A stretch of DNA of 64,000 bases from Robiginitomaculum sp. GTDB lineage: Bacteria > Pseudomonadota > Alphaproteobacteria > Caulobacterales > Maricaulaceae. The notes under the pieces are model-generated. The model had not been told where the DNA came from, ran no database searches, and was given only the letters and a program-made list of their open reading frames with translations. A program made the translations under genes and the position numbers. This document shows positions 13,355-61,435 of the stretch, in pieces (positions within the stretch are counted from its first letter, which is position 1; each line of letters opens with the position of its first letter). The stretch spans positions 1 through 64,000 of the forward strand of contig WFTT01000093.1 in NCBI GenBank assembly GCA_015485335.1. The letters are read 5' to 3'.

Positions 13355-13443
13355 TGTCATTACCCGGTTTATCCGGGGTATCCAGTTTTGCATTAATCCT
13401 GCTTTGGATTGCCGGGACGGATCCGGCAATAACAGGGGCGACA
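13355..13443 (+). repeat. Repeat unit R1, copy A (double palindrome)
   Basis: Two palindromes in one unit: ACCCGG/CCGGGG around TTTAT (13362-13379) and ATTGCCGG/CCGGCAAT (about 13409-13430). The outer parts match the unit at 61348-61435 in inverted orientation: 29 of 31 bases over the first part and 29 of 34 over the second, while the ~18 bases between are unrelated. Confidence 0.85.
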
Positions 13444-13453
13444 ACACCAATAC

Positions 13454-13495
13454 GATACCTCACCAGCACCGGTGTGGGACAAGGTTTTGTTATCC
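13454..13495 (+). repeat. Conserved 42-bp tract, copy A
   Basis: Directly follows R1. It aligns without gaps to the reverse complement of about 61297-61338 with 32 of 42 identities, ending in a shared AAGG, TT and TATCCC pattern. It contains a CACC/GGTG hairpin. It shows that homology between the two blocks continues beyond R1. Confidence 0.7.
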
Positions 13496-13529
13496 CCTGT
13501 TCCTAAGTTGAGGTGCCGGCATAGAGACG

Positions 13530-13655
13530 ATCTCTTTCCTCTCCCGGGTGGGAGAGGAATAAGGTGAGGGATCATGGACTTAAAGACAGTGCACTATCAT
13601 TGTTTCACAATCCCCTCACCCCTGCCCTCTCTCCGAGGCGAGGGAGTTCCGCCGA
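13530..13655. repeat. Palindromic insert within repeat block A
   Basis: Contains CCTCTCCC/GGGAGAGG (about 13539-13557), then GGTGAGGGAT, and an inverted partner ATCCCCTCACC about 40 bp later, then CCCTCTCTCCGAGGCGAGGG. This looks like a small nested palindromic repeat. Block B has a different palindrome at the corresponding place, so the blocks are mosaics. Confidence 0.6.
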
Positions 13656-13657
13656 GG

Positions 13658-13800
13658 ATAGCAAACCCAAGGGGCAAAGAGGGGCAGCGCTTACCCCTCG
13701 GCATGACCGTCTTTGCCCCTTAAATGCCCCTAGAATGCGCAAAACAGACCCTGAAATGCCCTTTGTTTACCCCTGATTGCCCCTGAAATGACGGGGATAT
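13658..13800 (-). repeat. G-rich repeat module, copy A
   Basis: Read on the minus strand it has G-runs every 6-10 bases, a GGGCATTTCAGGG segment, TAGGGGCATTTAAGGGGCAAAGA-type sequence and a terminal hairpin GAGGGG/CCCCTC. It aligns along its length with 61004-61158 on the plus strand, roughly 70% by eye. It sits between the esterase gene and fluC, 109 bp from the fluC start. No credible ORF is present. Confidence 0.75.
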
Positions 13801-13908
13801 CCTTGTCTTATCCCCACTTTAATAAAAACCAGTAAAATGGTGTATTTTAATGGTGGGTTTACGGGCAATCCCCTTGCCCGGCGGCCGTGGGGCCGGTATC
13901 AGCGCATT

Positions 13909-60935: not shown

Positions 60936-61003
60936 CCACACCTATAACTTTCTCTAAATTTAGTATTCTACCGCCAATGCACAGGGCGGGGATATCTCAG
61001 ACT

Positions 61004-61158
61004 TATCCATGATTTACCGAGGGGTAGTGAGGGGTAAAAAGGGGTAGATGAGGGACATTTCAGGGTTGTTATTGCATCCTTTAGGGGCCGATAAGGGGTA
61101 AAGATGGGCGTGATGAGGGGTAAGGGCTGCCCCTTATTGACCCTTGGGGTTTTCTATG
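61004..61158 (+). repeat. G-rich repeat module, copy B
   Basis: Begins with a canonical G-quadruplex motif at 61021-61054: four runs of three or four Gs separated by TAGTGA, TAAAAA and TAGATGA. Further segments GGGACATTTCAGGG and TTTAGGGGCC...AAGGGGTAAAGA and a terminal hairpin AGGGG/CCCCT (about 61116-61136) match the minus strand of 13658-13800 over about 150 bp. In the 594-bp gap 60900-61493 no credible gene is seen. Confidence 0.75.
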
Positions 61159-61239
61159 TGGGGGATAATGTCTTTGCCTCTCCATCCTCGTCTTGCTCCG
61201 GCTTGATCGGAGGATCCATTTCAATGCCTGTGTGTGTTG

Positions 61240-61280
61240 ACCTTCCCTGTGGATCCCAGCTCGGGGGCCGGGATGACGCG
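61240..61280. repeat. Palindromic insert within repeat block B
   Basis: A GGATCCCAG...CCGGGATGACG palindrome of the common alphaproteobacterial intergenic type. It occupies the place where block A has a different palindrome (13530-13655), consistent with independent insertions into the same block. Confidence 0.5.
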
Positions 61281-61296
61281 GTTGGATTTGGGGGCG

Positions 61297-61338
61297 GGAT
61301 AGCACAACCTTATCCAACAGCAGCGTTGTTGGGGTATG
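61297..61338 (-). repeat. Conserved 42-bp tract, copy B
   Basis: Reverse complement aligns without gaps to 13454-13495 (32 of 42 identical). It contains a CCAACA/TGTTGG hairpin (61314-61319 and 61327-61332). Confidence 0.7.
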
Positions 61339-61347
61339 ATGTTTGCA

Positions 61348-61435
61348 CTGTCCCCTGTCATTGCCGGGCCTGTGCCGGCAATCCAGAGTAGTTTTGAAAC
61401 TTAACTGGATTACCCGGATAAACCGGGTAATGACA
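61348..61435 (-). repeat. Repeat unit R1, copy B (double palindrome)
   Basis: Inverted copy of the unit at 13355-13443: TGTCATTACCCGG (minus strand) followed by a second palindrome CCGGCAAT. Outer segments 29/31 and 29/34 identical to copy A, middle unrelated. Immediately downstream lies CTCATCCTGAGCCTGTCGAAGG (61457-61477), a widespread extragenic repeat sequence. Confidence 0.85.

Follow-up and report, generated by a model that had tools for sequence, protein, structure and literature searches.

The G-rich stretch at positions 61,021–61,054 of the 64,000-nucleotide Robiginitomaculum sequence analysed here (the window) is part of one copy of a genus-restricted, interspersed intergenic element that behaves like a bacterial interspersed mosaic element (BIME). 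The core of the element is an array of "A-GGG(G)-T/C-A" units that lie on one strand and on one face of the duplex over eight to nine helical turns. The conserved property of this array is its helical phase and not the G-quadruplex rule, which a first-pass annotation had put forward for the motif. The copies form a repeat family, most of those examined being at sites shared across species, with helically phased G-runs, a quantised array length and nearly completely homogenised cores. Our best explanation, which we consider probable, is a BIME-like, genus-restricted element whose core offers a phased, strand-oriented array to a protein that wraps DNA or lines one of its faces.

Anatomy of the element

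The element is intergenic and about 400 bp long, its core is the G-rich array of about 110 bp, and the motif at 61,021–61,054 forms the left part of that array. The copy containing the motif (block B) is located in the intergenic region of the convergent genes DUF2155 and aat, and the window holds a second copy (block A):

60956..61348, plus strand: whole element, block B copy, from left to right end (HMM match on locus L014, 60956–61168; right-end pattern, 61310–61336)
60956..60975, plus strand: left terminus, with an outward -10-like TA-AAT hexamer on the minus strand (by eye)
60985..61008, plus strand: left inverted repeat, GGGGATAA / TTATCCCC type; block B has an imperfect form (from the sequence)
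61019..61126, plus strand: G-rich array of ten G-runs, containing the motif 61021–61054
61115..61135, plus strand: terminal inverted repeat closing the array (GAGGGG... / ...CCCCTT)
61160..61168, plus strand: GGGGGATAA box, the end of the module
61169..61290, plus strand: variable palindromic (REP-like) cassette, its type varying among copies (by eye)
61310..61348, plus strand: right end, TTATCCAACA ... GGGGTATGATGTTTGCAC
61352..61435, plus strand: REP-like palindrome pair after the right end, a similar pair following block A
13450..13847, minus strand: block A, second element copy of the window (core 13658–13784)

The order of parts in the family is left terminus, GGGGATAA / TTATCCCC-type inverted repeat, G-rich array, palindrome, GCGGGGGATAA, variable REP-like cassette and right end (TTATCC-AC ... 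GGGGTATAAT-like). The palindrome that closes the array reads GAGGGGTAAG-CTTACCCCTC in its best form, and the cassette is short or absent in some copies of one relative (G006). By eye, both termini carry outward -10-like hexamers and look mutually inverted, the inverted repeats being imperfect; the resemblance of the left terminus (60956–60975) to an inverted copy of the right one was likewise judged by eye. A DnaA box at the right end was considered and dropped by eye, because the sequence has one base more than the consensus. The REP-like palindrome pairs that trail the two copies (61352–61435 and 13355–13438) are 84 nt long and match at 81% in inverted orientation.

Copy number and distribution

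Searching the own draft assembly (2.9 Mb in 146 contigs, the window lying in contig C93) with the window copy yielded 28 matches below 1e-5, self included. A query nearer to the consensus yielded 36 matches at E ≤ 1e-4 (45 candidates, 40 scored), several of which are contig-end fragments that may be parts of one copy. These 36 matches support the earlier claims that the module is not random GC bias and has more copies in the genome than expected by chance. Among 41 genomes, comprising the own genome and 40 relatives, five showed a match at 1e-5, all from the same genus; two of the relatives, G012 and G006, had 29 and 13 matches, respectively, at E ≤ 0.001. An exact 25-base pattern near the own consensus was found at four loci of a single assembly, Robiginitomaculum MAG Faavne_M6_B16, in a named genome collection, a search that may exclude own-genome records. 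An HMM run over the collected loci returned 71 distinct matches (one of them a weak reverse-strand match close to another copy), of which 60 are full length: 30 in the own genome, block A among them, 17 in G012 and 13 in G006. The G012 counts are based on 17 distinct copies, from its 29 matches.

The same architecture, diverged, is present in further genomes beyond these three. The right-end pattern has 10–18 matches in each of G000, G006, G012, G010, G002 and G003 and three in G017 (control 0–2), and in the other 11 genus genomes it has one or two matches in five and none in six. It misses some elements, G004 having an element at the window site yet no match. Reading 12 right ends in G010, G002, G003 and G017 revealed a clear diverged array upstream of 10, a fragment at L171 and none at L162, and no array was found upstream of five right ends read in G016, G007, G014 and G005. 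In 119 further genomes of the family the pattern has at most one match each (11 have one), and a lone match in another genus (L183 in G108) looks genuine. At L163 and L171 (G002), the elements have beside or inside them an extra common stretch that resembles the terminus of a different repeat or insertion sequence, and at L025 / L028 (own contig C101, 8–381) two near-identical modules face each other at a contig end, possibly a repeat assembly artefact. Among the open-licence literature matches listed, none describes this repeat for Robiginitomaculum or other members of the family.

Like BIME / REP sequences, as described for E. coli BIME-2 and its relatives, the element is intergenic, present in many copies and a mosaic with palindromic pieces. 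Whereas BIME / REP are composed of short alternating palindromes, the core of the element is a long phased G-run array instead of alternating REP units, and REP-like palindromes are confined to the cassette and the flank. A REP-associated Y1 transposase was rejected as the driver: PF01797 (Y1, IS200/REP type) has no match in the own draft genome or in G012, although it matches in six of the 18 genus genomes, including the element-bearing G006, G002 and G003. The element is best read as a new version of the bacterial interspersed mosaic element, restricted to this genus.

Shared sites, gene context and homogenisation of the core

The left flank is in common with that of a copy in another genome for 15 of 17 copies in G012 and 12 of 14 in G006. 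We compared identities for 29 HMM-anchored left-flank pairs of full-length copies, excluding right-flank-only pairs, flanks in the other orientation and copies that are not full length. Left-end identity is 0.679 for orthologous and 0.495 for non-orthologous copies, a difference reached by none of 500 permutations, while the core values lie at 0.729 and 0.707 (1 of 500 permutations) and, for variable columns only, at 0.431 and 0.389 (8 of 500). Complete erasure of orthology in the core is thus rejected, as a faint signal persists (1 of 500 permutations). Two G012 copies at different sites, each of which is also occupied in the other two genomes, share 378 identical bp from the array start on, and their left ends differ at once. 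The core undergoes concerted evolution in place, with near-complete homogenisation between dispersed copies; repair-driven conversion from other copies may be the process that homogenises it. In the own copies L027 and block A (13450–13847, L037), the left flank matches one relative copy and the right flank another, an arrangement that fits crossing-over between elements and could also be misassembly at repeats.

Elements or clear diverged forms occupy the window site, between DUF2155 and aat, in G000, G006, G012, G004 and G010; G002, and possibly G008, has fragments there. The orthologues of the two genes are only 6–36 bp apart in G017, G015, G016, G014 and G005, so the element was gained or lost at this site. 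Five genomes (G003, G007, G009, G013 and G001) have no clear element or a region that is not comparable, and aat had no match in G011. In G012, aat (L137 and L145, contig C22 51622–52270) was matched as two overlapping pieces, which suggests a frameshift or assembly error, and G009 and G012 seem to have an extra, by eye cupin-like frame between DUF2155 and aat (L136 and L137).

Gene context was examined at 20 loci, of which four were unclear and two represent the same site in a second genome. The other loci gave 14 distinct sites with a clearly conserved upstream gene, which ends at the element in 11 cases and points away in three. Pfam gave names to ten of the genes ending at elements, among them LpxC, coproporphyrinogen oxidase, HolC, a response regulator, FTHFS and DUF2155; they have no obvious common function. 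At L026, a site common to three genomes, the element directly follows a response regulator of 232 aa.

Helical phase of the G-run array

The regular rhythm of G-runs described in the first pass proved real and greatly exceeds chance. When the distinct peaks of 10.75-bp G+C periodicity are ranked over the window, block A comes first and block B third, corresponding to fractions of 8e-5 and 5e-4 of all 130-bp windows. The second strongest such periodicity (2291–2420) lies within a minus-strand ORF (612–2801) and possibly reflects a helical protein repeat. The start-to-start spacings of the G-runs in block B are 10, 10, 11, 11, 21, 11, 11, 11 and 7, and over all copies 358 of 400 successive spacings differ by no more than 1 bp from some multiple of 10.75 bp (own genome 166/189, G012 114/124, G006 78/87), as 21% of spacings of 4 to 45 would.

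Because the copies are related, pooled spacing counts overstate independence, and the phase was therefore also tested on 10 copies from eight genomes (own, G006, G012, G004, G010, G003, G017 and G002, the last five strongly diverged in sequence), hand-picked and with bounds set by eye. Their best periods are 10.5–11.0 with R of 0.82–0.95, the spectrum averaged over them has its maximum at 10.75 (z 9.6 relative to dinucleotide shuffles), and the value at 10.5 was reached by 0 to 8 of 300 shuffles per copy. The G-runs are on one strand: across 60 cores, the first 90 nt contain 379 runs of GGG and 10 of CCC. The arrays are eight or nine helical turns long: the array length is 85–87 in 34 and 94–96 in 20 of 58 copies and never 88–93 (for two of the 60 copies no length was obtained). 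Quantised lengths would also arise, with no selection on phase, if whole units of 10–11 bp were gained or lost in tandem.

A spacing that is fixed to the helical repeat and kept despite sequence drift suggests that the duplex is read from one face over eight to nine turns. We infer that a protein contacts or wraps one face of the double-stranded DNA over the array, with gyrase as a leading candidate and an oligomerising nucleoid or regulatory protein as main alternative; its role may lie in local supercoiling or chromosome organisation beside gene ends.

Gyrase as a candidate binder of the array

Within this explanation, the array might wrap gyrase, so that every element would serve as a hard-wired station for supercoiling next to the end of a gene. 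The E. coli gyrase motif is described as 130 bp long, with arms of 10.75-bp G+C periodicity around a 36-bp centre, and BIME-2 repeats as enriched in gyrase cuts (PMC6379681); phased G/C in DNA wrapping is also discussed in a preprint (PMC12393610). The element resembles the E. coli motif and the strong gyrase site of phage Mu, as described, in having 10.75-bp periodic G+C over about 130 bp flanking a centre. Besides the period, which equals that of the published arms, its length of roughly 110–130 bp, the genes ending at it at 11 of 14 clear distinct sites and the BIME-2 precedent (PMC6379681) speak for gyrase. The published motif concerns G+C content symmetric about the cut, whereas the G-runs of the element are all on one strand, and its central gap of about two turns (about 21 bp between run starts) is shorter than 36 bp. 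Moreover, 10.5–10.75 bp is the helical repeat itself and fits any wrapping protein.

Comparison with phage Mu, intended as proof of gyrase, was only partly positive. Of the windows that overlap the annotated gyrase cut, the best one ranks in the top 0.12% of Mu; centred on the cut, however, the measure is at the 50th percentile, and the Mu maximum lies elsewhere. By a two-arm measure, block A ranks second and block B eighth in the window, while Mu's own site is only in the top 3.4% of Mu. Periodicity power is 20.9 and 15.9 for the two blocks and 6.6 for Mu's gyrase site. Gyrase is a leading candidate for the binder; as a complete account, with a supercoiling station in every element, we rate it as possible but rather unlikely. 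A polymerising or wrapping nucleoid protein fits as well, and for that reason our commitment is to a phased protein array and not to one named protein.

A possible mobile element without a host role

The element might also be a selfish, MITE-like remnant, that is, an old non-autonomous transposon with inverted ends and no present host role, whose phase would stem from phased transposase sites or tandem units. It resembles MITEs, enterobacterial RU and pneumococcal BOX and RUP in being a small intergenic repeat, and MITEs, as described, have inverted ends, as the two ends of the element seem to be by eye. Gain or loss at the window site, with the flanking genes 6–36 bp apart in five other genus genomes, would fit such a remnant. 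In contrast to these repeat classes as described, the copies examined are mostly at shared sites and not scattered, and their core is homogenised in place. Preservation of phase despite sequence divergence suggests constraint, and no autonomous version was noticed among the right-end matches, all 10 in the own genome and 16 of 18 in G012 being within about 450 nt of a module (two G012 matches are not). We consider a purely selfish remnant unlikely, if still a serious competitor of the phased protein array.

G-quadruplex and RNA structure

The quadruplex motif at 61,021–61,054 is present as annotated, reading GGGG-6-GGGG-6-GGGG-7-GGG on the plus strand, and the minus-strand loops of block A are indeed 6, 8 and 7. 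The motif alone is not rare, since the 64-kb window contains 10 canonical quadruplex motifs and shuffled versions 4.5 ± 2.2 (60 shuffles), the largest shuffle also reaching 10. If the G-rich strand folded as a quadruplex, in DNA or RNA, the strong conservation of the G-runs would be accounted for, and 26 of the 60 full-length copies from three genomes, the window copy included, do satisfy the rule, with about 10 expected from shuffles of the G-rich core (own 10/30, G012 9/17 and G006 7/13, compared to expectations of 4.3, 3.7 and 2.4). Among the 58 copies with measurable arrays, the rule holds in 12 of 34 eight-turn, 11 of 20 nine-turn and two of four other arrays, block B being among the copies with an extra 10-bp unit. 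Despite this excess over shuffles, 34 of the 60 copies fail the rule, which leaves the quadruplex reading of the first-pass annotation unsupported; as a conserved feature the quadruplex is rejected, with under half of the copies obeying it.

All three loops have 5–7 bases in 25 of the 26 copies that satisfy the rule, the lengths that four-G runs one helical turn apart would give. Copies in G002, G003 and G017 keep the phase with many three-G runs that are seven or more bases apart, the bases adjacent to the runs are conserved (A precedes 433 of 525 runs), and a folded single strand would be indifferent to helical phase. Quadruplex formation is probably not the point of the motif, and we regard a quadruplex as the explanation of the element as improbable. 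The GGGNATC repeats of Xanthomonas and Nostoc (PMC4692102) are similarly G-rich, intergenic and often near gene ends, but are described as having a seven-base unit with a preference for four units, as opposed to the 10–11-base unit and eight to nine turns found here. More generally, caution is needed with canonical quadruplex patterns, which may simply result from G-runs in helical phase, as a 10–11-bp period with runs of four gives loops of 6–7.

The GAGGGG/CCCCT hairpin noted at the end of the module is conserved as an inverted repeat: in an alignment of 58 copies with 51 distinct rows (L111 and L049 of the 60 omitted), 85% of the cells of the terminal palindrome are paired, but hairpin covariation is no higher than in shuffles. 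A structured RNA, as the annotation had also proposed, did not hold up. The window copy folds no more stably than its shuffled versions do (z of -0.36 over 220 nt and of -0.44 over the array), the covariation term is 0.04 in the 39 of 60 copies aligned, and no Rfam family reaches the gathering score within the window. A structured or regulatory RNA transcribed through the module, as 3'UTR or small RNA, is very improbable, even though at 11 of 14 clear sites the upstream gene has the G-rich strand as its coding strand, the hairpin is conserved and two of 13 predicted consensus pairs have kept a two-sided change. Also against it, 12 of 60 copies have a G-run plus T-run resembling a terminator ahead of the array.

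Implications

The phased protein array allows a further, tentative proposal, which we hold to be conceivable without expecting it: the elements would be genome-wide, hard-wired DNA-wrapping stations, about one per 80–100 kb and mostly at fixed sites, in which phase is selected while the sequence is rewritten by conversion between stations. Gyrase might be what acts at such stations, as super-strong natural sites where its cleavage would set off the conversion, or else a novel phased nucleoid protein might bind them. If the phased protein array holds up, the family would make visible how helical phase is selected in DNA whose sequence drifts and is homogenised. Two ideas could then be tested directly: that bacterial chromosomes carry wrapping or supercoiling stations encoded in their sequence, and that breaks made by enzymes drive the concerted evolution of dispersed repeats.
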